From Candidatus Woesearchaeota archaeon (GTDB lineage Archaea; Nanobdellota; Nanobdellia; Woesearchaeales; JACPJR01): a stretch of 52,607 bases of DNA. The notes under the pieces are model-generated. The model was not told where the DNA came from. It was given only the letters and a program-made list of their open reading frames with translations, and ran no database searches. Made by a program: the position numbers and the translations under genes. This document shows positions 39,112 through 52,607 of the stretch, in pieces. Positions within the stretch are counted from its first letter, which is position 1. Each line of letters begins with the position of its first letter. The DNA is taken from contig JACPJR010000029.1 of NCBI GenBank assembly GCA_016187565.1, forward strand, positions 1 through 52,607, given 5' to 3'.

Positions 39112-39375
39112 TTGTATCATGTTGACGTATCTACCCGAGCAGAGAAATTTATTGATAAATTAGATAATCATTTGCGATTACGAATAGAAGAGCGGCTTAA
39201 AAAACTAAAGGATAACCCTATACCAAGCGATGCGAAATTCATTGGCAGAGACGAGATGGGTGAGAAAATATTTCGATACCGAATTGGAGCTTATCGCGCA
39301 TTATACAAAATCAAAGAGCAAGAGCAGATCATTCTCATATCAAAGATTGATAAACGTCCACGAGTTTATGATTAG
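39112..39375 (+). CDS. RelE/ParE-family toxin
   Basis: The 87-aa protein has the RelE fold pattern: STRAEKFIDKLDNHLRLRIEERLKKLKDNP (two N-terminal helices; quoted for position only), then IGRDEMGEKIFRYRIGAYRALYKI with the usual R-x-R-x-G-x-Y-R core, and IILISKIDKRPRVYD with a basic C-terminal strand. RelE toxins cleave mRNA at the ribosome. Translation starts at TTG 39112, since no ATG or GTG fits; the 6-bp distance to the antitoxin stop suggests coupling. The catalytic basic residues and the terminal Tyr appear intact. Confidence 0.8.
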   Translation: MYHVDVSTRAEKFIDKLDNHLRLRIEERLKKLKDNPIPSDAKFIGRDEMGEKIFRYRIGAYRALYKIKEQEQIILISKIDKRPRVYD

Positions 39376-39491: not shown

Positions 39492-39974
39492 ATGCTATCA
39501 GGATTTTTAAAAAAACTGCTTTTTGTGCGGCAGTTTTCCATGGTTAACGGAAAGATCAATCTGCTCGGCAAAGAGCAGGTCATGTTGTCTTCTGAATTTT
39601 TGAGGGGGTTACAAAGCATTGATGAAGGATTGGTATATGATCTTGCGAAAAAGATAGGGCTTGAAGACGCCAAATATTATACCAAAATTCTTGATTCTGG
39701 ACATGGAGATCTCCTTGGCCATATCAAAATGGTTTTTGATACCTATGGCTTAGGTATCCTAGAAATTGAACTTTTAAAGAAAGAAAAAGCAACTGTTCGT
39801 GTAGTACAATCAACATTGGCAAACATAAAAAAACAGAGTGATAAGACAGTCTGTACCATCACGGCAGGCCTTTTAGCTGGTTTTTTTTCTTACCTTCTAA
39901 AGCGAGAGGTAAATTGTATTGAAAAAAAGTGTAAGTCAATGGGAAACTTATACTGTGTATTTGAAATAAAATGA
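39492..39974 (+). CDS. V4R-domain small-molecule sensor protein (160 aa)
   Basis: The C-terminal half matches the V4R domain: CTITAGLLAGFFSYLLK, then VNCIEKKCKSMGNLYCVFEI, with conserved Cys residues that bind zinc in the phenol sensor DmpR. The N-terminal half (VNGKINLLGKEQVMLSSEF) resembles the ligand-binding part of XylR/DmpR-type aromatic sensors. V4R domains bind small hydrophobic molecules. The gene starts an apparent operon with a KaiC-like ATPase and a second V4R protein. A TATA box (39439-39447) lies about 49 nt before the ATG, leaving a short leader. There is no DNA-binding or enzymatic domain, so it probably passes ligand status to the ATPase next to it. Confidence 0.75.
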   Translation: MLSGFLKKLLFVRQFSMVNGKINLLGKEQVMLSSEFLRGLQSIDEGLVYDLAKKIGLEDAKYYTKILDSGHGDLLGHIKMVFDTYGLGILEIELLKKEKATVRVVQSTLANIKKQSDKTVCTITAGLLAGFFSYLLKREVNCIEKKCKSMGNLYCVFEIK

Positions 39975-39997
39975 TGATGTTAAGATGAGGTGAAAAG

Positions 39998-40750
39998 ATG
40001 ACACGCGTTAAAACAGGTATAAAAGGTTTTGATGAACTTATTCAAGGAGGTTTTCCCAAAGGAAATTCAATTTTGTATACCGGTTCACCGGGAACAGGTA
40101 AAACCATCTTTGGGTTACAGTTCCTTTACAACGGAGCACAATTGTACAAAGAAAAAGGGTTGTACGTAAGTTTTGAACAGCCCGTTATAGATATTCAAAA
40201 TCAAGCAAAGCAGTTCGGGTGGGATTTGAAAACATTAGAGAAAAAAGGATTGTTGAAGATTTTAAGCATTCCTGCACGAGATATCAAGAAAGATACTGCG
40301 CAAGAGGTTATTAGACTTTGCGAAAAAGAGAAGATAGAAAGAATGGTTATTGACTCTCTGTCAACGTTATCTATTAATGCACCGATCTATTCAGTAACTA
40401 GTGATTTAGCAATAGCGGAGGTAGTAGAAAATTCTACTTTTTTTTCTCCACCAGTTATCGGTGATCTTGTCGTCAAAAGATTTATTTATGGTTTTATTGA
40501 TGATTTGAGAAAGTTACCTAATACAACAACAGTTCTTATCTCAGAAACTTCGAAAGAGAGTGCGTATCTTTCCCGCGATACCATTTCAGAATTTCTTTGT
40601 GATGGAGTTGTTCTTGTTACTTTTGAAAGTATGGGTGGAGAATATTCACGAAGTCTTCTTGTCAGAAAAATGAGACAAACAAAGAACGATGAGGATATTC
40701 ACCCTTTAGAGGTTAGTAAACATGGATTAGTAGTTCATAAAATCACATGA
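39998..40750 (+). CDS. KaiC-like RecA-superfamily ATPase
   Basis: This 250-aa single-domain KaiC/RadA-like ATPase has Walker A GSPGTGKT (29-36), a catalytic Glu region FEQP (about 59-62), and Walker B MVIDSLS (about 115-121). It starts TGIKGFDELIQGGFPKG, the standard KaiC opening. A strong Shine-Dalgarno GAGGTGA sits 7 nt before the ATG. Archaeal KaiC-like proteins of this type are commonly linked to signal transduction, not clocks. Placement between two V4R genes suggests that ligand-bound V4R proteins control its ATPase or assembly. No second KaiC domain is present. Confidence 0.88.
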   Translation: MTRVKTGIKGFDELIQGGFPKGNSILYTGSPGTGKTIFGLQFLYNGAQLYKEKGLYVSFEQPVIDIQNQAKQFGWDLKTLEKKGLLKILSIPARDIKKDTAQEVIRLCEKEKIERMVIDSLSTLSINAPIYSVTSDLAIAEVVENSTFFSPPVIGDLVVKRFIYGFIDDLRKLPNTTTVLISETSKESAYLSRDTISEFLCDGVVLVTFESMGGEYSRSLLVRKMRQTKNDEDIHPLEVSKHGLVVHKIT

Positions 40751-40760
40751 GGTGAATAAG

Positions 40761-41423
40761 ATGGCTTTCAAAGCACCCCCAAAAATACTTCAGAAGGTAT
40801 TAGGGTTTAAAGCATTTCAGCATCGAGATGGAAAATTGTTTCTTTGGGGTGTACCTGGCACTTTAAGCCCACTCTACGTTTCAGTTTATTTAGTTAGGCT
40901 TATGGAAAAAGAATTAGGAGAGAAAAAAACCATGAGCTTATTTTACCACTCTGGCAGATTTCAAGGTAAACAAGCCTTTGAAATTATCAGTAAAAATTTT
41001 GGATATGCAGAAACGCTACACGATAAAAAAGAGCTTTTACTTTTTAATACTGGTCAAGGGGATGTTATTGGTTTAGGCTCTTTTGAGTGGACTATGGTTG
41101 ATTTCAACAAAAAATATTTTGTTGCTAAGGTTAAATCCAATATTGCTGAAGAATATAAACGATTTTTTGGAAACAGAAAATCAGGTGTTGACTATTTTGT
41201 AAGAGGAATTGTTTCAACTTTTGTTGAAGAACTTATTAAGGAACCAACGTTAACTATAGAAACGAAATGTGTTGGCTCGGGTAAACCTTTTTGTGAGTTT
41301 GTAACAAAGCCTGTTAAACATTGGGACAAAAATGATCCACTCGTAAAAGAGCAAACCCCGGAGAATTTGTCTAGTTTTAAGGAACTAGGTGCAAAGATTG
41401 AACCATACCTAAATTTAGGCTGA
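40761..41423 (+). CDS. V4R-domain sensor protein (220 aa)
   Basis: This larger V4R protein has an N-terminal part (HRDGKLFLWGVPGTLSPLYV, then HSGRFQGKQAFEIISKNFGY) that looks like the XylR_N ligand-binding domain. Its V4R half follows (GVDYFVRGIVSTFVEELI, then IETKCVGSGKPFCEFVTKP). ATG 40761 follows GAGGTGA by 5 nt, overlapping the KaiC stop region, so translation is probably coupled. It ends 1 bp before the flavoprotein gene on the other strand. The two V4R proteins in one operon are dissimilar, so they may sense different ligands or form a heterodimer. Confidence 0.72.
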   Translation: MAFKAPPKILQKVLGFKAFQHRDGKLFLWGVPGTLSPLYVSVYLVRLMEKELGEKKTMSLFYHSGRFQGKQAFEIISKNFGYAETLHDKKELLLFNTGQGDVIGLGSFEWTMVDFNKKYFVAKVKSNIAEEYKRFFGNRKSGVDYFVRGIVSTFVEELIKEPTLTIETKCVGSGKPFCEFVTKPVKHWDKNDPLVKEQTPENLSSFKELGAKIEPYLNLG

Positions 41424-41424
41424 T

Positions 41425-43038
41425 TTAGATACCATACCTTCCGGGTGATATGACTCTGTTAGGGTCTAGTGCGACTTTAATTCTTTCAAAAGTATCCCAT
41501 CGCTCTGGGTTTTGAAAATTAGATGGATCCATTTCTAAAATGCTTGATCGATACGTGAAAATACCGTTTCTAGAAAAAGTATCAAGTACTTCATGATATA
41601 ATTGATAAGCTCTTTCTCTCTCTTCTGGGTCATTTTTATTGAAATGCAAACTAATAATGCCAACACATTGATCTGGTTCAACTAAGGTTATGGTTAACGG
41701 CATTTCAAAATCGTATCTTCGAAAAATTTTCTGCCCAAGATCATACACTTTTTTTGCAGTTTCTCCCAAAGATGGAAATGTTGGGGATATCCAGATGAGG
41801 CCATTGTCTTCATGATTGCCGTTTCTCCAAAGAATATTTTCTTCTGGCATGTCAGATGGAACACCATTCATGAGGTTATGAATACTTCTGTAAGTTCTCA
41901 TCGTTCTTTGTAATCCTTCAGCAGTTCTTAAGTAACCTACAAGACTCCTTAAATAATCTTCTAGTATTGGTGATCTGCAGGCCATGTGTTCAAGTATGCT
42001 ACTTGCATGAAGCCTTGCAAAAATAGACCCAACTCTTTCCATGAAATCAATTCTCTCATCACTAAAAAACATTGCATGTCCTCCAATTCTTCTTATTGAT
42101 TCGGCAAGTATTCTTCTTTTGATGCTTACTTCTTCTGATGTTCCGTAGAGGCCACCGACAGCAGTCCAGTAGAGTCTTTCATTAAATTGAGCAGATAACA
42201 TTTCAGATGCTTCGTAAGGTCCTAGTCTTCTTGTCTCATATCCTGGAGGGACTCTTCCTGTTGTAACTACCATCCTCATTGGATCTGCTATATGCACAAG
42301 ACTATTAGTAATACTTCGTTGTCTTAAGTCTCTCAATGTCTCTACGAGTTCAACTAAATCTTCTTCTTTAGGAACGGTTAATCTAAATGAATTGTAACAT
42401 TCAGGTCTTCGATACAACCTCAAAGAGGCAGCGGTTACTATCCCAAAATTACTTTGAACGAAAATTCCATTCAGATCTGGTCCGATACCTGGGAATTTCC
42501 CAGGGTAAAATAGATCCCCAGTACCAAGAACTACCTCCAATCCAGCTACGTTTTTTCTTCTATTTCCTAAGGGGGTATGCCCAAATCCTCCTTCTAAGGT
42601 GTTACCAACGATACTTGATTTTGTTCCAGCTCCCGTAACATCAGTAATCCATTTATCTCCCTGATTTGATAAATAAGCTGATAGATCTCCCTGTGTCACA
42701 CCCGGTTCAATAACAACAGTCCCTAGTGTATGATCATATGATCTGATTGCATTCAATCCACTTAAATCAACTAAAAATGCAACATTCCGTGGTGGTGCTT
42801 TCTCTCCATATCCTATATTTCTTCCACGACTGAATGGATATAATGTTACCCTATACCTATTTGCAATTCTCACTATATTTTGGACGTCAGCAGTTGTTCT
42901 TGGCTTTACTACTGCCTCAACTCTTCTCTCTAAACCAAGGGTGTTAGAAGTTTGTCTTTCCAAAACTCTTGCTTCTGTAACTACAGAATCTTGGCCAAGA
43001 AAAGAGCTTATCTCGCTTAAGGCATCAATTAAAGCCAT
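41425..43038 (-). CDS. FAD-linked oxidase of the vanillyl-alcohol oxidase / p-cresol methylhydroxylase family
   Basis: The 537-aa protein has a PCMH-type FAD-binding domain (about 40-230). It contains AVVKPRTTADVQNIVRIAN, SRGRNIGYGEKAPPRN (equivalent to the S-G-R-N-x-G-Y-G of vanillyl-alcohol oxidase and p-cresol methylhydroxylase), and PLGNRRKNVAGLEVVLGTGDLF. A substrate-binding domain follows, ending DPNRVISPGRYGI, the typical C terminus of that branch. These enzymes oxidise the side chain of 4-substituted phenols. It lies 41 bp downstream of the response-regulator/acyltransferase gene, in the same direction. ATG 43038 is preferred over an in-frame TTG at 43053. A phenol oxidase of bacterial type in an archaeal signalling cluster suggests horizontal transfer. 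Covalent attachment of FAD cannot be judged. Confidence 0.8.
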   Translation of the reverse strand: MALIDALSEISSFLGQDSVVTEARVLERQTSNTLGLERRVEAVVKPRTTADVQNIVRIANRYRVTLYPFSRGRNIGYGEKAPPRNVAFLVDLSGLNAIRSYDHTLGTVVIEPGVTQGDLSAYLSNQGDKWITDVTGAGTKSSIVGNTLEGGFGHTPLGNRRKNVAGLEVVLGTGDLFYPGKFPGIGPDLNGIFVQSNFGIVTAASLRLYRRPECYNSFRLTVPKEEDLVELVETLRDLRQRSITNSLVHIADPMRMVVTTGRVPPGYETRRLGPYEASEMLSAQFNERLYWTAVGGLYGTSEEVSIKRRILAESIRRIGGHAMFFSDERIDFMERVGSIFARLHASSILEHMACRSPILEDYLRSLVGYLRTAEGLQRTMRTYRSIHNLMNGVPSDMPEENILWRNGNHEDNGLIWISPTFPSLGETAKKVYDLGQKIFRRYDFEMPLTITLVEPDQCVGIISLHFNKNDPEERERAYQLYHEVLDTFSRNGIFTYRSSILEMDPSNFQNPERWDTFERIKVALDPNRVISPGRYGI

Positions 43039-43079
43039 TGAATCTACCCCCAAAAAAATCCAAGAGTATACATGCTCCT

Positions 43080-44582
43080 TTATTCAGTTTTGTTTTCTAA
43101 AAATCGTTGAGCTCGTAATGGACAGTGGTAATCTAATGGTTGAGATACTGGAGAAAGGTACCCGCTTTTCAGGCAATCTTGAAGGTGAGGACACATGCAT
43201 GAGATCTGTTGATCTCCATCCCTTTCTTTCTGCTGTTTTAATTTTGTTTCATAAACTAAAATATTTTCTCTTTTTTGAGGATCTACAGACTCTCCTCCCG
43301 TTCTTAATTCTCCTAAATCAAGTCGATAAGCCATTGATGGTGCATTTATCTTGTAATATTCTTCCTGTTTTGCTCCAGGCACTGGTTGAAAACCTAAACG
43401 TCTATAGAAGTGTTTCCAATGTCTTGGATCACAACAAATCAAGGCATCACTTACTCCTCGTACAAGTAAGTAAGCTAATGCCTCTTGATGTAATCGTTCG
43501 TTGACATTATTTCCATGGTAGCCACCACGATATCGAGCAAGTACACCTAATCTACCAATTTCTTCAAAAGTTCGAGAGGGATCTCCTACTAATAAAGCAG
43601 CCCGATAAGCAGTTAATTCTCCTTCTTTATCATGCACTCGTTCAATGGGTAATTGACAGGGCCTTTCACGCGTTGTAGTATTGTAAACGGCTACCTTACC
43701 ATCGGTGATTTCAGCTTTTGGGCCAATTTGACCCTTCAAAAGATCGGCAAAAGGAACGCCAAGTTCTTCCAGTAGTAAAGTTAATTGCATGTTAACAAGT
43801 GTATCAATATCATATGTCCTTTTTACATCTAAACGGACTTCTTCTTTCGCAACTCTACCATTTGCATCAGAAAGAGCATACCCCCTTTTTTTCATAATTA
43901 TTTCAATAATCCTTCTTTGTTCCTCGGGTATAGTTTGGATAGGGTTAGTTGTTCTCAGGCCACCTGCATAATTACTTTCTCCAATTCTTGTTTCAAATGC
44001 AGCTAATACCCGAGAATGGAAATCATATCCATCTATATCAAGCCAGGTTTTGTTCTGATCAATCCATCCTTCCTGTTGCCAGACATGGTACCTTCCTTCA
44101 AAAAAAGCTTCCATTTTGTGAGGGTCTGAATTGACGATACTAAACACAAAGGCAAGGTCTAACCAATTGTCATGGATATATTGTTTTGCTGCTTTTCTTA
44201 CCTTCGGAACCAAATCGGCTTCATGACCCTTTTTGATAAAATCGTTTACCCCAAGTTGGATAGCTTGTTCAAGGTCAGGCTGAGATGCTTGTCCTGTTAA
44301 GAGAATAGTTTTAGGACGGGCGAATGCGCCAGCCTCTACCATAGCATATACTTCCTGCATCACTTGAACTCCTGTTTTGTCTGGCATAATTTGGTCTAAA
44401 ACAAGAACTGCAGGCATTTCTTTTCTCTGGGCAAGCATGGCTAGGTATGCTAAAATACTGTTTCCGCCTTGAAAATCTTCCAAATTAAAAATATCGGAAA
44501 AACCATCGCTCTCAAGGCGCCTTCGTATAGCACTAACCGTCGTTGGGTCATCATCAGCTAGAAGGATAAATGGTTTTTCCAT
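43080..44582 (-). CDS. Response regulator fused to a LuxI/FeeM-like acyltransferase
   Basis: Residues 1-125 form a receiver domain with acidic D10-D12, phospho-acceptor D63 (VLVLDQIMPD), T96 and K117, all canonical. Residues about 145-425 resemble acyl-homoserine-lactone and N-acyl amino acid synthases (GNAT fold). R164 and W173 are followed by D182/D184/D187 in LDIDGYD, R210 in AGGLRTT, E341/R344 in EEIGRLGVL, and YRRLGF (393-398). These match, in order, the LuxI-type R, W, D-D, R and E-x-x-R residues. A C-terminal Cys cluster (C462, C464, C470, C487) may bind zinc or iron. A GAGGAGA ribosome site precedes the ATG. It lies 69 bp after the histidine kinase gene, the likely partner, and just before the flavoprotein gene. 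Predicted role: phosphorylation-controlled synthesis of an acylated signal. Confidence 0.75.
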   Translation of the reverse strand: MEKPFILLADDDPTTVSAIRRRLESDGFSDIFNLEDFQGGNSILAYLAMLAQRKEMPAVLVLDQIMPDKTGVQVMQEVYAMVEAGAFARPKTILLTGQASQPDLEQAIQLGVNDFIKKGHEADLVPKVRKAAKQYIHDNWLDLAFVFSIVNSDPHKMEAFFEGRYHVWQQEGWIDQNKTWLDIDGYDFHSRVLAAFETRIGESNYAGGLRTTNPIQTIPEEQRRIIEIIMKKRGYALSDANGRVAKEEVRLDVKRTYDIDTLVNMQLTLLLEELGVPFADLLKGQIGPKAEITDGKVAVYNTTTRERPCQLPIERVHDKEGELTAYRAALLVGDPSRTFEEIGRLGVLARYRGGYHGNNVNERLHQEALAYLLVRGVSDALICCDPRHWKHFYRRLGFQPVPGAKQEEYYKINAPSMAYRLDLGELRTGGESVDPQKRENILVYETKLKQQKERDGDQQISCMCPHLQDCLKSGYLSPVSQPLDYHCPLRAQRFLENKTE

Positions 44583-44606
44583 AATTTTTTTCTCCTCTGG
44601 TTAGTC

Positions 44607-44634
44607 AGATAATATTTTATCTACTAAATAGTAG
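44607..44634. promoter_or_regulatory. Two adjacent palindromes at the promoter of the regulator/acyltransferase gene
   Basis: AGATAATATTTTATCT (44607-44622, 6-bp arms, 4-nt spacer) is directly followed by CTACTAAATAGTAG (44621-44634, 5-bp arms, 4-nt spacer). On the minus strand a TATA-like ATTTATATAC (44641-44650) lies just upstream, predicting transcription start near 44619, inside the palindromes. This is a typical repressor position. The downstream gene begins at 44582. Confidence 0.45.
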
Positions 44635-44651
44635 CTTAAAGTATATAAATC

Positions 44652-47234
44652 TTATCGTAAATCTCGTGGCAATCTCATTTCAAAAGATGTTTCCTTATTG
44701 TCTGAATAGACGGCCATTTTGCCATGGTGACGGCGTTCAACTATGTCTCTACAAATGTATAAACCTAATCCACTACCTCTCCCTCTTGGCTTTGTTGTAA
44801 AAAATGGCTCGAAAACGTTGCCTCTGTTTTCTTCAGGTATCGACGGCCCATTATTTGTAATTCTAAAGCAATTATAACCATCTCTCTCGTAGCTTTCAAG
44901 ATGAATATAACTCTCTTTTCCAAGTGGTCCTTTTTCTTCTAAGGCTTGTACTGAGTTAACAATTAGATTGACAATAGCTTCTTGTAATTCTCCAGGGTAG
45001 CATGTCATTGGTGGTGTTTTCTTCAAGTCAAGTCTTAAATCAACGTTCTCTACCTTTAAATGCCTAGTAAGAACGAGAGCATGATTGACACAATCATCAA
45101 GCCTTACACCCTGTTCCGGGTTAGTTCCTCTAAAGGAATAAGTTGCTAGGGATTCCATAATCTGATTGAGTTTGACAGAACTTCTTCTGTTATCAGTTGC
45201 CATAGAAAAGGTATCAAAAATAGTATACATTATTTCTAATAAGGTGTTTAAGTTGTATCTTCGAAAATGAGCAAGGTATTCAGTTAGTTCTATTGATGTA
45301 AATCCCATTTTGGCGTACTTGTCGGAACTTGATCTTGCTGCTCCACTATGACAACCCGCCATAACTTCTCTTAATTCACTAGCTACTTGTCTGACTTCAT
45401 CAAGAGATCTAACTTGTTCACCCAATGCGTAATCGATGCTTCTATTACGATAACAACGGTACCGTTCAAAATCATCATCGGTTAGTCCTATTTCCCTTGC
45501 TCGTTGGTCTGAGTCTAGTAATACTCGGAGATTCTGAGGTAACATAGAAGAATTCGCAACCAAAGTTGTCAGAGGAGTCTTAGCCGTATGAGCAACACCT
45601 GCAGCGATTAATAGTTTCGCTGCCTCAGCCTCTGCTGTTACTAAATCTACTCGCGCTGCTTCCAAAGCTCTCTGTGTTTCTAGATGATCTCTCAACACTT
45701 TAGTATTATGATATACTCCAGCAACATTATCCATCAAACTCATGATAACTGATACTTGATCAATAAACTCTGCGTGTGGTGTTTCACAAAAATAAGCCAT
45801 TGCATAATCTCCTGCTGCATCTGGAAGAAAAAGCCCTCCTTCGCTGGTTCGGTAGGGTGAACGTTGCCATCGTACTCTATCCTCGTAAGTCGTACGTGCT
45901 GCAGCAATTGTATCTTGATGGTGCAGAATTGACCCAATTTGTTCAGGCGTAAGGACTCCATATACTTTTTGAAGACCATACTCACGGATTTCTCTTGGGT
46001 TCCTTGTTCCTTGGTAATCTCTAAGCAATGCTACTATTTGTTCGTGAGTGAGAATGTCAAGTGCTTCTTCTCGTAATTTTCTTCGTCGTAGTATCTCTTC
46101 TTCGCGAAGACTATCAAAAAATACCATAAACTCTCGGTCAATTTCTCTATCAGGATGATCAGGGAAACCAGTAAACTCTGCCATTGCGAGATTACGTCCT
46201 TGGGGATCGGTAATCGGAACAGTAACCCGGGTAACATATCCTGCAAAATTCTTGCCAGTCTTTCCTTGCTGCTTATCTATTAAATAAATAGTATAAGCAT
46301 CCAACATGGCCTGCATTCGTTCCTCGCGATCAGCAACAACTCTGTCCAATTGTGCTGCAACATCGCGTAAAGAGGGAAATACAACAAATAGATCTCCGGT
46401 AATAATCGGTGCAGTGTAAGACACATTAGACCGATCGCCATGACTATAGAAATCTATGGCTTTATTTTGACGAAATATTCTCGCCTGAGCTGCAAGATCT
46501 TGTTTCCATAACTGGAGAAGATTTGCATCGCTGGTGACTTCTGGAGGAACACATTCTAAATATGACGCTAAGGGGACAAGAAATCGCCCATTGGTATCGA
46601 TATTCCCTTCTTCCACTGGTTCGTCAGGGCTATTGGATAATGCTCTAAAGTAAAGATTAAGGCCCATCCTTTCTGACACAAAACGCATTATTTCACGATG
46701 TGCCCTAATAAAGTATGATGCGGGGTGTTGCAAGGTTCCCTCTGCTAAAGAGCTATCGGATACCCCCATATTAAGGTGTGAAGCAAGCGTCCTTGTTGCG
46801 TCATCAAGTATATCACCAAGGTCTTTGCTCCTTTCTAGGAAGCGATGAACGGTATATTCTCTATACGCTTGTAATCCTAGTGATGAAGATACCTCGTCGG
46901 CTATACGCTCTAATACTCTCTCGAGAAAGGGTATACCTGTAACAGGATACCTGTTTGAAGATTGGTCATCTCTTCCCCTGAAATGTCTTTCTCGCCGCTC
47001 TAGAAGATAGGCATGGGCAACAAGGTCGTGGATAGCCTCACGTTCTTGTTGAGAAAACTTTCGGCCTGCTGTTTGATTTGCTCCTTGAAGAGCACCCGCT
47101 CGTATAAATCGGTATAAACTCTCGCGAAAGCCCCATTGGAACGGCTCGCGATTGGTAAAAAGAACACTTATTTCTGGATCTTGTTCAAGTCCTGCCCAAA
47201 TATTTCGTGTTACTTCATCAAGCGAGGGAAACAT
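44652..47234 (-). CDS. Soluble sensor histidine kinase (860 aa)
   Basis: The C-terminal third is a histidine kinase. The phospho-acceptor H549 lies in GVAHTAKTPLTTL. The HATPase domain has the N-box IVNLIVNSVQAL, an altered G1 box (ITNNGPSIP), the F-box FEPFFTTK and the G2 box GSGLGLYI. The N-terminal 530 residues are helical with no membrane segment and no clear PAS signature, so the sensor is cytoplasmic and unassigned. The usual acidic residue after the phospho-His is Thr here. A TATA box about 26 nt before ATG 47234 gives a leaderless transcript. The regulator/acyltransferase gene is 69 bp downstream, and they form an obvious cognate pair. Confidence 0.88.
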   Translation of the reverse strand: MFPSLDEVTRNIWAGLEQDPEISVLFTNREPFQWGFRESLYRFIRAGALQGANQTAGRKFSQQEREAIHDLVAHAYLLERRERHFRGRDDQSSNRYPVTGIPFLERVLERIADEVSSSLGLQAYREYTVHRFLERSKDLGDILDDATRTLASHLNMGVSDSSLAEGTLQHPASYFIRAHREIMRFVSERMGLNLYFRALSNSPDEPVEEGNIDTNGRFLVPLASYLECVPPEVTSDANLLQLWKQDLAAQARIFRQNKAIDFYSHGDRSNVSYTAPIITGDLFVVFPSLRDVAAQLDRVVADREERMQAMLDAYTIYLIDKQQGKTGKNFAGYVTRVTVPITDPQGRNLAMAEFTGFPDHPDREIDREFMVFFDSLREEEILRRRKLREEALDILTHEQIVALLRDYQGTRNPREIREYGLQKVYGVLTPEQIGSILHHQDTIAAARTTYEDRVRWQRSPYRTSEGGLFLPDAAGDYAMAYFCETPHAEFIDQVSVIMSLMDNVAGVYHNTKVLRDHLETQRALEAARVDLVTAEAEAAKLLIAAGVAHTAKTPLTTLVANSSMLPQNLRVLLDSDQRAREIGLTDDDFERYRCYRNRSIDYALGEQVRSLDEVRQVASELREVMAGCHSGAARSSSDKYAKMGFTSIELTEYLAHFRRYNLNTLLEIMYTIFDTFSMATDNRRSSVKLNQIMESLATYSFRGTNPEQGVRLDDCVNHALVLTRHLKVENVDLRLDLKKTPPMTCYPGELQEAIVNLIVNSVQALEEKGPLGKESYIHLESYERDGYNCFRITNNGPSIPEENRGNVFEPFFTTKPRGRGSGLGLYICRDIVERRHHGKMAVYSDNKETSFEMRLPRDLR

Positions 47235-47255
47235 AAATAAAACTAACGAAGAAGT

Positions 47256-47264
47256 CTATTTAAA
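47256..47264 (-). promoter_or_regulatory. TATA box of the histidine kinase gene
   Basis: On the minus strand CATTTAAAT is centred about 26 nt before ATG 47234. It shows the kinase gene has its own start within the island. Confidence 0.5.
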
Positions 47265-47320
47265 TGTTACTCTCAAATGACAACAAGACCCTTAGAGATT
47301 TAAGCTCTGAAGATCCTCTA

Positions 47321-47452
47321 TTAAAACTCCTCACCACCACTGAAAGCAGGGGCTACTCTATTGGTTTTGGTGTTTAACTCAAAAACCCCTTTACCATCTG
47401 CCTGTAGTTTATAGACGCCATCTTTGACGCCCAATATTTTTAAAATAGCCAT
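47321..47452 (-). CDS. Small unknown protein (43 aa)
   Basis: In the gap between the FIST gene and the kinase gene, the minus strand encodes a 43-aa protein starting MAILKILGVKDGVYKLQADG and ending AFSGGEEF. A good ribosome-binding sequence (AGGTGAG) lies 4 nt before the ATG, and a TATA-like GGTATAAAAC sits near 47479. The sequence is beta-rich and soluble. I do not recognise it. Its place between a sensor and the kinase may mean a small accessory or regulatory protein. The rest of 47235-47563 holds only the kinase promoter. Confidence 0.45.
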   Translation of the reverse strand: MAILKILGVKDGVYKLQADGKGVFELNTKTNRVAPAFSGGEEF

Positions 47453-47563
47453 AGACTCACCTTTTTTTGCGTTTTATACCTTCTTTTTCAGAATACCCTT
47501 TGGATATTCTCGATTTCTCATATGAAAACACTATAAATAGATTTCTATCATGGAGACTATAGG

Positions 47564-49063
47564 TTACTCCCCTAAGATAAGACAAACGACTGAACCATTA
47601 CAAAAAGAAAGCTTTCCATCATATCTTCCAATCTCTCCTTTCGTATACATACCAAAGACAGGAGTTTTCTGGAGATGATTCATGGCTTTGACTTTTCTTA
47701 CTTCATCTTCCTTATTCTTTGAAAGAATAGCTTCAAATATAGCGCAGGGAAAAAGTAAGACAAGTACGGGTTTTTGTATCTCTGTTTGCATTAAGGCCTT
47801 ATGAATAACTTCATGAGCACTTTCAATCAATTGATGGACAGTTGTGTCCATAATCTGGACACGAGTACCATCCTTAAAATCGAGGTTACATCGTAGTCCA
47901 CCATTTTTAGTAATATCAACAATCCATCCTAATTGGGTTGGGTTAGTAACATCCCCTAATGGCTTTAATCTATTTTCACTAATCATTTCCTTAATGAAAA
48001 GAGGAACATTTTTTCGAAATTCTTGCTCAGAGATTTTCATCTCTTTAGAGAATCCTTTGATAGGAGAGATTTGCTTTTTATCATTTTTTGCGGCACTAAT
48101 TATTGTACCCTCCTCCACTTTGAGCGTATACACATTATCTTTTTTTAGGGGCATATATCCTGTTTTTGTCGCTAGAGAATATTTTAATTTTGTTGTAACT
48201 ACAATCATAACTATGCAATTACTGTACACATTTACGCCAACAAACTGATATGTCTGTCGAAATTGCCAATCGCTACCACAAACACCGCCGAGCAGAAAAA
48301 AAGGGAGTTTTTCTCGCATATGGTCTATAAATGATGGCGCAATATTCTCCATATTATTTGATGTGCCTGGACCAGGGGTTAAGATCATTCCAAATGATGG
48401 TTTATTTTCGGTAATTGTTTCAAGCATCTGCTCAGTTTTTTGTGAAAACAGATCTTGCCGGTGAATAACGAAAATCTCGGCGCTGAACTGTTCTGGTGGT
48501 GCAGCAATCACACTGACACTGACACTACCATGAAGCCTTTGATCACAGATCTCACCAACCGTTGTTCCCCCTACAATCTTTGTCGTTTTCGTTACCTCTT
48601 TTATTCCCTCGAGCATTTCAGCAAAGTGTTCTTCATATTTTACCGAAGCAAAGACAAGAACAAGTTGTATTTGTTCTCTATAAAAAATAATAGATCGCAT
48701 TGCTTTCAACACAGCTTCTTTACCAGCTTCACGTGCATCCTTTTCTACTGAACTTCCACAACCAACCTCGATACGCGGAAGTTCTTGCTTCTGAAGATAG
48801 GTCTCTTCAATTTGTGTCATCCGTTCATTTAACTCGTGAAGCCAAGCCAGGTTTAAAGCATACTGTTGGTTTTCCTTATTAACGATTCCTTCTTTGGTAA
48901 GTCTATCGATAACTTTAAACACAGCCTGATACGTCACTGATTTTCCATACTCTTTTCGTATCTTATTATGGATCTTTTTAGAAGTAAGTGGCCATTCTTT
49001 ACTCAAGATCTCGATGATCAGATCCTTGGTTGATTTGTCGTTATGCCCTAATGAGGATAGCAT
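47564..49063 (-). CDS. Winged-helix / FIST sensor fusion protein
   Basis: The N-terminal 80 residues form a winged helix (TKDLIIEILSKEWPLTSKKI, then YQAVFKVIDRLTKEGIV). The rest is a FIST domain: LVLVFASVKY, KIVGGTTVGEI (the typical G-x-T-x-G-E), LLGGVCGSD, and the C-terminal FIST_C half ending with KTPVFGMYTKGEIGRY and GSVVCLIL. FIST domains sense small ligands, proposed to be amino acids, and usually attach to signalling outputs. A DNA-binding head suggests a one-component transcription regulator. The 499-aa length uses ATG 49063; a GTG at 49072 is an alternative close to a GAGGAGT sequence. It faces a divergent Lrp-like gene. Confidence 0.8.
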   Translation of the reverse strand: MLSSLGHNDKSTKDLIIEILSKEWPLTSKKIHNKIRKEYGKSVTYQAVFKVIDRLTKEGIVNKENQQYALNLAWLHELNERMTQIEETYLQKQELPRIEVGCGSSVEKDAREAGKEAVLKAMRSIIFYREQIQLVLVFASVKYEEHFAEMLEGIKEVTKTTKIVGGTTVGEICDQRLHGSVSVSVIAAPPEQFSAEIFVIHRQDLFSQKTEQMLETITENKPSFGMILTPGPGTSNNMENIAPSFIDHMREKLPFFLLGGVCGSDWQFRQTYQFVGVNVYSNCIVMIVVTTKLKYSLATKTGYMPLKKDNVYTLKVEEGTIISAAKNDKKQISPIKGFSKEMKISEQEFRKNVPLFIKEMISENRLKPLGDVTNPTQLGWIVDITKNGGLRCNLDFKDGTRVQIMDTTVHQLIESAHEVIHKALMQTEIQKPVLVLLFPCAIFEAILSKNKEDEVRKVKAMNHLQKTPVFGMYTKGEIGRYDGKLSFCNGSVVCLILGE

Positions 49064-49105
49064 GGTATACACATACTCCTCAGGAAAGAAATACCTTGTT
49101 TTCTT

Positions 49106-49146
49106 ATAAACCTTACGCTGTTGGCATGATCAACCAAAAGGTTTAT
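49106..49146. promoter_or_regulatory. Inverted repeat in the divergent FIST/Lrp promoter region
   Basis: ATAAACCTT (49106-49114) and AAGGTTTAT (49138-49146) are perfect 9-bp inverted copies with centres 32 bp apart, about three helical turns. The left copy overlaps a minus-strand TATA (GGTTTATAAG) for the FIST gene. The spacing suits a dimeric regulator such as the adjacent Lrp-like protein. Confidence 0.4.
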
Positions 49147-49220
49147 CGGAATTAAACCGAGAATATATATCAACAAAGAAAATATTTACGATAGAAAGAA
49201 ATATTTTGTGGGGTGATAGC

Positions 49221-49676
49221 ATGGATCAAAAGGATGTTGAGATTATTTCGCAACTAAGAGAAAATGCACGAATGCCGCTGACCAAAATGAGCCGGAGAAC
49301 AAGAATTCCGGTTTCAACCTTGTTTGATCGGATTCGGTCGAACGAACAAACGATCATTCTCCGGTACACGTCTTTACTTGATTTCAACAAACTTGGCTAT
49401 CATGCTCGTGCACATGTCCATCTTCGAGTTAGCCGTGAAGATAAGGAACTACTCAAAATCTTTCTGTTGAGTCATCCTTCGGTTAATGCAGTCTATCGCA
49501 TCAACAATGGGTATGACTTTATGGTTGAAGGTATCTTTCAGCAGGTGAAAGATCTTGAAGAGTTTATCGAACATGTCGAGCAACAGTTCTCGATAATTGA
49601 TAAACGGTCTTATTTTATTATCGAAGATCTCAAGCGGGAAGGCTTTTTGTGCCCAAAGATGTTAACGGCCGAATAA
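49221..49676 (+). CDS. Lrp/AsnC-family transcriptional regulator
   Basis: The 151-aa protein has an N-terminal helix-turn-helix (VEIISQLRENARMPLTKMSR, then IPVSTLFDRIRS) and a C-terminal RAM-like ligand and oligomerisation domain (YHARAHVHLRVS, then VNAVYRINNGYDFMVEGIF). ATG 49221 is chosen because GGGGTGAT lies just upstream and a TATA box (GAATATATAT, near 49165) sits about 55 nt before it; the frame also reaches a GTG-type start at 49206. Lrp proteins sense amino acids and often regulate themselves and neighbours, so control of the divergent FIST gene is plausible. Confidence 0.85.
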   Translation: MDQKDVEIISQLRENARMPLTKMSRRTRIPVSTLFDRIRSNEQTIILRYTSLLDFNKLGYHARAHVHLRVSREDKELLKIFLLSHPSVNAVYRINNGYDFMVEGIFQQVKDLEEFIEHVEQQFSIIDKRSYFIIEDLKREGFLCPKMLTAE

Positions 49677-50341: not shown

Positions 50342-50868
50342 AATCTACATGTTATTTTACAACGCTTGTTATATACTTATTGCTATTGACCATACTGAAT
50401 ATTAATCGTGTAACTGCTGTTCCACTTGTAGAGCCGGATGTGGAAGAGGCGCTTAATCAAACTGACCGAATTAAAGTTAATATAGTCTTTGTTAAGAACA
50501 TAACACCTGAGGATTTTGTTGCAAGTTTGAACTTGTCGTCTGAACATTTTAAGATAATCTATATTACTTATTCAAGGACTGCAGCCCAAGCTATTGTTAG
50601 TAGGGTTGGATTTGAAGAATTAAAAAAACGTGACGATCTTTTGGGAATTGGAATGCCAAAATTATTTGAGCTTACTAATGAAGCGATACTGAAAGAACTC
50701 AACAAGTCTGGTTCTGTTCTTGTGGAGATTCTCTTAAATGAGAATATTAGTCAGAATGAGGTCATCGTGGACTTACAATCTATGGATAATGGTTTCAATA
50801 TGATTCAAAAAAGATATTCTCCACGGTCTATCGTCGCTAATATTTATGGTAATTTGGCTTTTCATTAA
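50338..50868 (+). CDS. Short secreted protein resembling a protease prodomain (176 aa)
   Basis: A signal peptide (about 1-27) is followed by a region rich in alternating beta and alpha segments (RIKVNIVFVKNITPEDFVAS; VLVEILLNENISQNEVIVDL) that resembles the inhibitory prodomain of subtilisin-type proteases, apparently in two copies. Residues 123-169 are encoded by a 142-bp DNA segment that is repeated perfectly in the next gene. After the repeat this frame ends within eight codons (YGNLAFH, then stop), which looks like a truncation. It may be a stand-alone protease inhibitor or chaperone, or the remnant of an older full-length protease gene. Confidence 0.6.
   Translation: MKSTCYFTTLVIYLLLLTILNINRVTAVPLVEPDVEEALNQTDRIKVNIVFVKNITPEDFVASLNLSSEHFKIIYITYSRTAAQAIVSRVGFEELKKRDDLLGIGMPKLFELTNEAILKELNKSGSVLVEILLNENISQNEVIVDLQSMDNGFNMIQKRYSPRSIVANIYGNLAFH
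50704..50845 (+). repeat. 142-bp perfect direct repeat, copy 1
   Basis: Identical over 142 bp to 51013-51154. Both copies are read in the same frame and encode KSGSVLVEILL...RSIVANI. The copies are offset by 309 bp, a multiple of three. Confidence 0.95.
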
Positions 50869-50892: not shown

Positions 50893-52607
50893 ATGAAATT
50901 ATATCAAGCGATTTATTTGAGAGTATTCTTTTTATTAATCCTTTTTATTTTATTTGTTCAAATAGGCTACGCTAAACCACAGATACATAATAATGTATTT
51001 AATGCAACCAGTAAGTCTGGTTCTGTTCTTGTGGAGATTCTCTTAAATGAGAATATTAGTCAGAATGAGGTCATCGTGGACTTACAATCTATGGATAATG
51101 GTTTCAATATGATTCAAAAAAGATATTCTCCACGGTCTATCGTCGCTAATATTTTAAGTGCAGACGGTCGTGTTTCTAGGGTAGATGTAATACGATCAAC
51201 AAATCTTCACTTAGCAGAAAGTAGACAGGTAATAAAGTCAACTTATATCAATGATAACTTAGCCTATAAAGGTAGAGGTGCCACTGCTTGTATTATTGAT
51301 ACTGGTATTGATGTAGATAATTCTCATTTCTCTGGAAAAATAGTTGATGAAGCCTGTTTTTGTTTAGGTGATGGTATTAAAGGATGCTGTCCAAATAGTT
51401 TACCTAGTCAATTTGGTCCAGGGGCTGCTCAAGATGATCACGGGCATGGAACACATATTTCAGGAATAGTAGCAGCTGATGGATGGTTTACAAAGGGAAT
51501 AGCTCCTGAGGCTACTCTTTTGGTAGCTAAAGCATGTAACAAAGATATGACTTGCACATTCCCTGATCTTCAGGATGCTGTAAGTTGGTGTATGAATAAA
51601 ATTACCACACCTACTAAGGAGGTAATCACTTTAAGTAATGGTGTAGGTATATTTGGGTCATCTCAGTATTGTGATAATGAATACCTCGGTTTCTTGATAG
51701 GACAAGCATATAACCTTGGAATCCCCGTTGTAGCTTCATCAGGTAATAATGGATCTCTTAATGGAATTACGTTTCCTGCATGCAGTTCGGGAGCAATCTC
51801 AGTTGGATCAACGTATGATGATACTTTTTTAAGGAAACCATTGATTGGTGATTGGGAGGGGGCTAATTGTCATGATTCATTTATCCAACCAGACAATGTT
51901 TCTTGTTATACTAATCGGCATGAAATCCTTGATCTCTTGGCGCCCGGTTGTGATATTAAAAGCACTGGTTTGAATAGTCTTTTCAGAGAGTCAAAATGTG
52001 GTACTTCTATGGCATCGCCTCATGTAGCCGCCGCCATATTATTATTGCAAGAAGCAGCGAGAGGGACGTTATCACCTTTAGAAATAAGAGAGCGATTGAA
52101 AGAATCTGGAAAGATTATCCATGATACCAGCAACAGTAGGGATAATGGACCGCCTAGTGGTCTTTGGTTCCCACGTTTAGATATTCTTGCAGCATTCCAG
52201 CTTGACTGGCCCACCTACCAGCACGACAACAGGCGAACTGGTTTTACGTTATTGAAGGGTGATATGCAAAACTCGAAAGATGTTGAGCAGTTGGATTTTC
52301 TGTTCCGTGTTGGCGGGACTGAAGATCTGTTTTCTCGTTCTGTAGTTTCAGATATAGACGGTGATGATGACCTTGAGACGGTTTTCTTTAGTGTGTATGG
52401 CACGCCTGAGCATCCTGAGGGATGGTTATTTGTGATTGAGACCGACAAAGAAGGAAAGATACTACGAGAGAACAAGATCGGAGAATTATTTGTTGGTGAT
52501 GCAGCCAATGGTCCGCCTATTGTTGCCAATACTGATGACGATGCAGAAAAAGAAATAGTTGTTGGCCTAGCGAATGGTACGGTGTATCTTATTGATGCTC
52601 AACCTTC
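50893..52607 (+). CDS. Subtilisin-family serine protease (S8), partial at window end
   Basis: A signal peptide (about 1-28, ending near GYAKPQ) leads to a short prodomain (residues 41-115, containing the repeated segment). The S8 catalytic domain has D136 (CIIDTGID), H185 (DDHGHGTHISG) and S372 (CGTSMASPHVA), with oxyanion-hole SSGNNGS. After residue 430 come FG-GAP/VCBS-like beta-propeller repeats (VSDIDGDDDLETVFF; NTDDDAEKEIVVGL). At least 571 codons are present and the frame is still open at 52607. The enzyme is likely exported and active outside the cell. The start lies 24 bp after the prodomain-like gene. Extra cysteines (CFCLGDGIKGCC) suggest disulfides. Confidence 0.88.
   Translation, partial: MKLYQAIYLRVFFLLILFILFVQIGYAKPQIHNNVFNATSKSGSVLVEILLNENISQNEVIVDLQSMDNGFNMIQKRYSPRSIVANILSADGRVSRVDVIRSTNLHLAESRQVIKSTYINDNLAYKGRGATACIIDTGIDVDNSHFSGKIVDEACFCLGDGIKGCCPNSLPSQFGPGAAQDDHGHGTHISGIVAADGWFTKGIAPEATLLVAKACNKDMTCTFPDLQDAVSWCMNKITTPTKEVITLSNGVGIFGSSQYCDNEYLGFLIGQAYNLGIPVVASSGNNGSLNGITFPACSSGAISVGSTYDDTFLRKPLIGDWEGANCHDSFIQPDNVSCYTNRHEILDLLAPGCDIKSTGLNSLFRESKCGTSMASPHVAAAILLLQEAARGTLSPLEIRERLKESGKIIHDTSNSRDNGPPSGLWFPRLDILAAFQLDWPTYQHDNRRTGFTLLKGDMQNSKDVEQLDFLFRVGGTEDLFSRSVVSDIDGDDDLETVFFSVYGTPEHPEGWLFVIETDKEGKILRENKIGELFVGDAANGPPIVANTDDDAEKEIVVGLANGTVYLIDAQP
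51013..51154 (+). repeat. 142-bp perfect direct repeat, copy 2
   Basis: Second copy of 50704-50845, inside the prodomain of the subtilisin-family gene. Identity over the full length indicates a very recent duplication or ongoing gene conversion. Confidence 0.95.

Follow-up and report, generated by a model that had tools for sequence, protein, structure and literature searches.

Does a run of genes in a woesearchaeal genome, encoding V4R domains, a KaiC-family ATPase, a histidine kinase, a FeeM-type acyltransferase, a flavoprotein and a FIST protein, make up a system for producing and sensing a small molecule? To our knowledge, little is understood of how DPANN archaea communicate with host cells and other neighbours. 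A conserved locus that joins a synthase to a sensor would offer a testable archaeal small-molecule system and a function for a KaiC clade, and would suggest a candidate ligand class for V4R.

Gene order and composition of the locus

Gene families were assigned with Pfam and NCBIfam profiles across the locus (Table 1), which lies in a window (the whole stretch of DNA analysed) of 52,607 nucleotides. All of the open reading frames and coordinates of the original prediction were confirmed, as was its description of two convergent gene groups, which meet tail to tail with a gap of 1 bp between V4R2 and the VAO gene. Gaps in the forward group are 23 bp (V4R1 to KaiC) and 1 bp (KaiC to V4R2); in the reverse group they are 26 bp (VAO to REC:FeeM), 69 bp (REC:FeeM to kinase) and 329 bp (kinase to FIST). 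The small reading frame in this last interval may be a chance ORF, and it is uncertain whether the Lrp/AsnC-type regulator, divergent from the FIST gene, belongs to the locus.

Table 1. Features of the locus, with positions in the window
Feature	Position	Strand	Evidence
V4R1	39492..39974	+	Pfam V4R, 50.7 bits
KaiC-family ATPase	39998..40750	+	Pfam KaiC, 182.8 bits
V4R2	40752..41423	+	Pfam V4R, 28.9 bits (31.3 in a separate search)
VAO/PCMH-type flavoprotein	41425..43053	-	FAD_binding_4; PDB matches
REC:FeeM, receiver fused to a FeeM/LuxI-type GNAT acyltransferase	43080..44582	-	Response_reg, 48.3 bits; FeeM, 25.7 bits
Cytosolic histidine kinase (HK)	44652..47234	-	HATPase_c, 72.5 bits
43-aa ORF between FIST and HK	47321..47452	-	Translation
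Winged helix + FIST_N + FIST_C	47564..49072	-	Pfam FIST, 82.6 bits; FIST_C, 60 bits
Lrp/AsnC-type regulator	49206..49676	+	Pfam HTH_AsnC / AsnC_trans_reg

The GC content and codon usage of the island are those of the remaining window, and it therefore shows no sign of being a foreign or chimeric insert; recent horizontal transfer and a chimeric contig were both rejected, the codon usage being native. An archaeal RNase P is also encoded within the window, in keeping with an archaeal genome. Searches against plasmids returned matches to the receiver only for the full REC:FeeM protein, none for the N-terminal part of the kinase, and only bacterial flavoproteins at about 25-30% identity for the VAO protein; these searches identified no bacterial donor.

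Recurrence in the Woesearchaeales

The conserved coupling of V4R and KaiC genes to an acyltransferase, as originally predicted, was addressed by a survey of 353 genomes, assigned to the order by their contig titles, with the FeeM search made blind to KaiC. FeeM-type acyltransferases are rare, with 17 places in the 353 genomes, and they are not scattered: 14 of the 17 have a member of the KaiC subfamily, or its V4R partner, no more than 6 kb away, where 0.2 would be expected (tail P about 4e-25). At the level of genomes the two co-occur 12 times against 1.4 expected. The exceptions are G350, where FeeM is in a phage-like region, G302, and the weak case of G063. A search of genome contigs with the REC:FeeM protein alone found no relative.

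The ATPase is a single-domain protein with an intact Walker A motif (GSPGTGKT, at residue 29), and its subfamily is a dedicated Woesearchaeales clade in our tree (support 100/97). Small-molecule enzymes are found at approximately 28 of 35 places of this subfamily: FeeM, other GNAT, AMP-binding or KAS III/LuxC-like enzymes, and further a B12-radical SAM enzyme, a methyltransferase or a VAO flavoprotein. The tail-to-tail order, with KaiC-V4R facing FeeM, methyltransferase or radical SAM genes, is found repeatedly. No synthase was recognised at some KaiC-V4R loci (G120, G123 and G128), and other such loci end at a contig edge. That the clustering is a coincidence or an assembly artefact is scarcely credible; the assemblies are drafts and several loci sit at contig ends, but the pattern is present across many families and on separately named public contigs, and the composition of the window is uniform.

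The FIST protein carries an N-terminal winged helix, extending its first description, and is probably a one-component regulator that binds a ligand. It had no match in the PDB, and is 33% identical over its full length to a winged-helix FIST protein near KaiC genes at locus L114; a FIST-profile match next to a different KaiC in the window's own genome (L051) was discounted, as it covers the winged-helix part only. The idea of the five families as an invariable set had to be abandoned, FIST and VAO being optional. It is nonetheless unlikely that the true unit is just V4R-KaiC-V4R plus the acyltransferase, with the flavoprotein, kinase and FIST protein as independent neighbours. FIST genes occur mostly elsewhere in the order, with only 4 of their 26 places close to the KaiC subfamily, the VAO relatives in G155 have no adjoining signalling genes, and the wide gap between the FIST and kinase genes also speaks for independence. 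Against it, the pair of kinase and REC:FeeM is found again in G033, a GNAT-V4R-VAO arrangement adjoins KaiC in G233, and FIST recurs near KaiC/V4R in three genomes: G144 (together with a KAS III:REC protein and an aldehyde dehydrogenase), G213 (with a LuxC-like enzyme) and G004; the VAO, REC:FeeM and kinase genes are, moreover, tightly spaced on one strand.

The acyltransferase and the histidine kinase

The FeeM domain of REC:FeeM scores just under the curated Pfam cut-off of 27 bits and represents a divergent copy, with an insertion at about residues 211-335; most FeeM relatives in the order clearly exceed the cut-off. An archaeal FeeM profile built without the window protein scores 27.9 bits on it, in two collinear stretches, and matches BjaI, FeeM, RpaI, TofI and LasI in the PDB. 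R164, D184, D187, R210 and E341 of REC:FeeM fall in invariant columns of alignment A4, with R344 at +3; the same pattern is visible when archaeal FeeM is aligned to BjaI, and these R..D..D..R..E..R residues are what we take to be the LuxI active-site residues. The AlphaFold model of REC:FeeM (pLDDT 48) was too poor and was left out of the analysis. Acyl carrier protein (PF00550) was detected in 0 of 20 genomes with these loci and in 11 of 14 controls, making a home-made acyl-ACP donor unlikely for the FeeM-like enzyme; acyl- or aroyl-CoA is a possible donor.

The receiver has its phospho-acceptor D63 and K117, and the kinase is probably its partner. The kinase has a candidate phospho-His549, an N-box at 756 and a G-box at 820, with a weak HisKA profile match (14.8 bits), and its C-terminal 365 residues share 25% identity with the kinase that accompanies REC:FeeM in G033. 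The N-terminal 540 residues match no known domain and had no counterpart in any other of 33 genomes.

The flavoprotein and the V4R proteins

The VAO protein matches p-cresol methylhydroxylase and vanillyl-alcohol oxidase in the PDB (E about 1e-40 to 1e-53) and keeps the phenolate-binding Tyr...Tyr-Arg (Y82, Y501, R502). The family's catalytic Asp near the FAD is absent: Gly141 stands there, and Gly is found also in the G233 and G155 relatives, the former a flavoprotein adjoining V4R/KaiC and 39% identical to that of the window. It is likely a tailoring enzyme.

V4R domains are relatives of the eukaryotic Bet3. V4R1 is a small V4R-domain protein, similar to the C-terminal part of MsvR in profile searches, with C-E-C-C kept in its sequence at the positions of the MopR zinc site. 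For V4R2 the alignment takes in most of the protein and the entire DmpR/MopR sensor domain (profile matches to PoxR/MopR/DmpR at positions 11-201), and its AlphaFold model (pLDDT 82.7) matches DmpR, PoxR and MopR in Foldseek (E 2e-11, TM 0.65-0.73); as modelled, its sensor fold is DmpR/PoxR/MopR-like. At the putative zinc-site positions it has D147, E170, C173 and C181, with Asp in place of the first Cys. The phenol-binding His106 and Trp134 of MopR are not kept in the alignment, Trp134 falling at a gap and His106 facing other residues.

These residues bear on whether the locus senses and degrades environmental phenols, with a DmpR-type sensor in V4R and a catabolic 4-alkylphenol oxidase in VAO. 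The modelled V4R2 fold and the Tyr...Tyr-Arg of the flavoprotein would suit such a role, but the phenol contacts of MopR and the VAO-family Asp are missing, no other aromatic-degradation gene was recognised at the locus, and most related loci have other enzymes instead of VAO; phenol catabolism is very improbable and was rejected as the main function. The acylated phenolic molecule originally proposed is likewise not supported: the same residue changes, the lack of an acyl carrier protein, and the replacement of VAO by B12-radical SAM or methyltransferase genes at other loci all count against it.

A proposed mechanism

The gene families, their order and recurrence, the kept catalytic-type residues and the modelled fold of V4R2 are best explained if this locus belongs to a modular system of the Woesearchaeales that exists in several versions and serves to produce and detect a small hydrophobic molecule, with KaiC as relay, and we consider this probable. 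The idea of synthesis and sensing thus survives from the original prediction through the conserved coupling of V4R/KaiC to the acyltransferase, without the acylated phenol and the fixed five-family set. From the proteins described we infer the enzymatic activities, ligand binding, the KaiC relay and the role of the molecule as a signal. The FeeM/LuxI-type domain would transfer an acyl or aryl group onto an amine; oxidation of that product or its precursor would fall to the flavoprotein. Given the receiver fusion, the kinase would control synthase activity through phosphorylation. V4R1 and V4R2 would bind the molecule and act on their partner ATPase, which would pass on the V4R state, and the winged-helix FIST protein may be a second sensor, not present in every version, that also regulates transcription. 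The KaiC-V4R pair is the constant element among relatives, around which synthases (FeeM, other GNAT, AMP-binding, or KAS III with LuxC-like enzymes) and tailoring enzymes are exchanged, so that every lineage would produce a compound of its own. Against this reading stand the divergence of the window's FeeM domain, the lack of an acyl carrier protein, the changed phenol contacts and the KaiC-V4R loci with no recognised synthase; nor were a transporter or defined target genes recognised.

More tentatively, the Woesearchaeota, tiny and uncultured archaea, may have a cell-cell signalling family of their own, in which a KaiC-V4R receptor-relay is combined with exchangeable acyl/aryl-amide, AMP-ligase or ketosynthase synthases; it is likewise conceivable, at the same tentative level, that some of these are switched directly through a phosphorylated fused receiver. 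It is rather unlikely that the product is not a signal and instead an aminolipid, a membrane or cell-surface lipid, a cofactor or an antibiotic, and that KaiC-V4R does no more than regulate its pathway in response to substrate, product or redox state. Consistent with such a product, some archaeal FeeM-type proteins also resemble ornithine-lipid and exosortase-associated acyltransferases, the radical SAM partners resemble B12-radical SAM enzymes of lipid and natural-product pathways, and the V4R domain of MsvR is a redox sensor (PMC3729527). However, enzyme exchange around a fixed sensor pair fits diversified signals better than one structural lipid, lipid-assembly genes recur in none of the loci read, and the fusion of receiver and synthase implies acute control.

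Comparison with known systems

Archaeal signalling hubs with KaiC-like proteins (Makarova, Galperin and Koonin 2017, as cited in PMC5847659) likewise place KaiC, the presumed relay, alongside sensor domains and genes of two-component systems; here, a specific KaiC clade is tied to V4R and small-molecule synthases. V4R2 aligns with, and is modelled to fold as, the sensor domain of DmpR/PoxR/MopR, with D-E-C-C at the zinc-site positions (C-E-C-C in V4R1); it differs in having neither the phenol-contacting His/Trp nor a sigma54 AAA+ or DNA-binding domain, the KaiC ATPase being encoded separately. The flavoprotein can be aligned over most of its length with VAO/p-cresol methylhydroxylase, whereas the catalytic Asp is Gly in the aligned Woesearchaeales members.

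FeeM/NasY N-acyl amino acid synthase clusters (the eDNA fee cluster; stieleriacines, PMC12479983) also combine a synthase with tailoring enzymes, including a methyltransferase in both cases. In contrast to these, the archaeal loci have B12-radical SAM or VAO instead of nitroreductase/ThiF, are coupled to KaiC-V4R, and had no detectable acyl carrier protein; the window copy is furthermore receiver-fused and under the Pfam cut-off. The carboxyl-AHL system of Methanosaeta harundinacea is, by description, an archaeal acyl-signal synthase with two-component signalling (PMC3991700), but there FilI is part of the two-component system, while here the receiver carries the synthase and KaiC/V4R is added. 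A survey of quorum sensing in CPR and DPANN found LuxI homologues in CPR only and makes no reference to either KaiC or V4R (PMC7567580).

A further parallel, in gene arrangement, is to LuxI/LuxR-type AHL quorum sensing (BjaI, RpaI, LasI, EsaI), in which a gene for a GNAT-fold synthase lies beside that for a putative receptor, and archaeal FeeM shares profile similarity and the R..D..D..R..E..R residues with LuxI-type synthases. Unlike those systems, V4R and the KaiC ATPase here replace LuxR on the putative receptor side, and the synthase of these DPANN archaea may be receiver-fused and accompanied by extra tailoring enzymes; a receiver domain switching a signal synthase would, if true, be an unusual control principle. 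Judged from gene content, the recurrent loci of KaiC-V4R with synthase and tailoring genes suggest a hitherto undescribed route by which archaea produce and detect a small molecule.

Genomic neighborhood of FeeM-type acyltransferases

The genes for FeeM-type acyltransferases were searched for in 353 genomes of the order Woesearchaeales (G-numbers below) independently of KaiC, and the surroundings of each match were then read. The family occupies 17 places in 16 genomes, 14 of them with a KaiC of the window subfamily and/or its V4R partner no more than about 6 kb away: the window, G223 (twice), G048, G256, G077, G348, G083, G126, G322, G079, G151, G175 and G072. The other three are in G350 (phage-like region), G302 and G063 (weak match). 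Random placement would give 0.2 such neighbors (tail about 4e-25), and FeeM and KaiC co-occur in 12 genomes versus 1.4 expected (P 3e-11); both statistics ignore shared ancestry, and the genomes span many families. The FeeM and KaiC/V4R homologs of the proposed signaling island are thus not scattered in related genomes. The most frequent arrangement is KaiC-V4R tail to tail with either FeeM and then a B12-binding radical SAM enzyme or a fused methyltransferase-FeeM. A phylum sample of 371 genomes showed FeeM in this order only.

In the window, all eight ORFs and their named domains lie where the original prediction placed them, and its two gene groups do converge, 1 bp apart. Gaps are 23 and 1 bp on the plus strand (V4R1, KaiC, V4R2), and 26, 69 and 329 bp on the minus strand (VAO-type flavoprotein, receiver-FeeM fusion [REC:FeeM], histidine kinase, FIST). 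An archaeal RNase P is present in the window, and GC content and codon usage of the island are like those of the remainder.

Features of the window and of loci in other genomes (L-numbers)
Locus	Position	Strand	Feature
Window	3953-27025	-	Three successive giant ORFs (about 2500 aa each), apparent surface proteins; right-handed beta-helix-like repeats, glycine-rich C-terminal parts
Window	39112-39375		ParE-type toxin-like ORF, immediately upstream of V4R1
Window	39492-39974	+	V4R1
Window	39998-40750	+	KaiC
Window	40752-41423	+	V4R2
Window	41425-43053	-	VAO
Window	43080-44582	-	REC:FeeM
Window	44652-47234	-	Histidine kinase
Window	47321-47452	-	43-aa ORF (MAILKILGVKDGVYKLQADGKGVFELNTKTNRVAPAFSGGEEF) between FIST and kinase
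Window	47564-49072	-	FIST
Window	49206-49676	+	Lrp/AsnC
Window	50704-50845, 51013-51154		Direct repeat (142 bp, exact) linking two adjacent ORFs, the second a subtilisin-like protease
L041	2348-2653		MGxIISSK protein
L090	3642-3944		MGxIISSK protein
L094	3854-4150		MGxIISSK protein
L095	9835-10164		MGxIISSK protein (and others elsewhere)
L089	G350:C2:88000-106000		Phage-like gene region containing FeeM-type acyltransferase
L114	13994-18006		Tandem winged-helix-FIST proteins near two KaiC genes (another archaeon)
L181	13780-15225		KAS III-like enzyme with C-terminal receiver (G144)

The KaiC subfamily and its enzymes

The KaiC subfamily, a supported clade (100/97), has 35 places at E <= 1e-70. 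By reading of the loci, at least one small-molecule enzyme is near about 28 of these. The random-placement expectation given above is for FeeM, and the weight of the association therefore rests on FeeM rather than on the commoner enzyme families. Several of the exceptions are cut by contig ends. Besides FeeM, the enzymes include other GNATs (G215, G216, G233; methyltransferase-fused in G321), AMP-binding enzymes (G140, G129, G234) and LuxC/aldehyde dehydrogenase-like proteins (G213, G004); apart from G144, discussed below, the remaining enzyme-bearing loci have radical SAM or methyltransferase alone. KaiC-V4R adjacency also occurs in Micrarchaeota, Altiarchaeota and Diapherotrites. In many loci the gene immediately before KaiC encodes a conserved protein of ~100 aa (MGxIISSK...) without Pfam match; it is missing from the window, where V4R1 occupies its place.

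The closest relatives of the window KaiC are those of G144, G004 and G033 (96/94), and receiver-fused enzymes are common to all four loci. REC:FeeM is found in the window and in G033, whose copy matches the archaeal FeeM profile at 7e-30 and adjoins a kinase 25% identical to the window kinase over the C-terminal 365 aa; in G004 the protein is dehydrogenase-like and the receiver match weak. G144 encodes a second receiver-fused synthase, a beta-ketoacyl-ACP synthase III-like (KAS III) enzyme, neighbored by aldehyde dehydrogenase, FIST, V4R and KaiC.

FIST, predicted as part of the island, has KaiC/V4R no farther than 11 kb away in the window, G144, G213 and G004 (chance about 3e-6 given both genes), but 22 of its 26 places in the order lie elsewhere, and it is therefore an optional member. 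One L114 winged-helix-FIST protein is 33% identical to the window FIST over its full length. A VAO relative in G233 (39% identical) directly follows V4R in a co-directional run of histidine kinase, response regulator, three KaiC genes, GNAT, V4R and VAO; two more copies, in G155, have no linkage to signaling genes.

Synthase and sensor domains

A profile built from 12 FeeM-type sequences of archaea detects autoinducer synthases of bacteria in the PDB. The top match was a plain GNAT, SACOL1063 (3e-10), followed by a BjaI-type autoinducer synthase (1e-8), FeeM (4e-8), coumaroyl-homoserine lactone synthase (5e-6), another AHL synthase (2e-5), LasI (3e-3) and EsaI (0.08). The window domain is divergent (25.7 bits, Pfam; 27.9 bits, archaeal profile, in two collinear stretches flanking an insertion) and retains R164, D184, D187, R210, E341 and R344, which we take to be the conserved Arg/Asp/Asp/Arg/Glu/Arg of the LuxI fold. 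A search of 20 genomes bearing these loci found no acyl carrier protein, and a CoA-type or scavenged donor is therefore more likely.

The V4R2 fold is taken from a predicted model (pLDDT 82.7), which in structure comes closest to the phenol-sensing domains of DmpR, PoxR and MopR, followed by TRAPP/Bet3 proteins (palmitoylated ones included) and one archaeal V4R protein. Zinc-site positions are retained in sequence (C-E-C-C in V4R1, D-E-C-C in V4R2), although the phenol-contacting His and Trp are not kept in V4R2. VAO retains Tyr82 and Tyr501-Arg502, with Gly in place of the family catalytic Asp.

Proposed mechanism

Domain content, gene order, recurrence and retained motifs are established at the level of sequence. 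The main rival to a signaling role is that the locus makes a regulated non-signal metabolite. In a signaling pathway, the kinase would phosphorylate D63 and so set synthase activity; the synthase would form an acyl- or aryl-amide, which VAO may oxidize. The amide would be bound by V4R, which could then act on KaiC, with transcriptional output possibly via FIST and Lrp.

Comparison with known systems

A literature search for "FIST domain" together with "KaiC" found no paper. A published survey that covered the quorum-sensing genes of both CPR and DPANN reports LuxI homologs in CPR only and makes no mention of KaiC or V4R (PMC7567580). The portions consulted of an archaeal two-component census mention no synthase of the REC:FeeM type; they do mention KaiC hubs, as well as archaeal response regulators fused to enzymes (PMC5847659).
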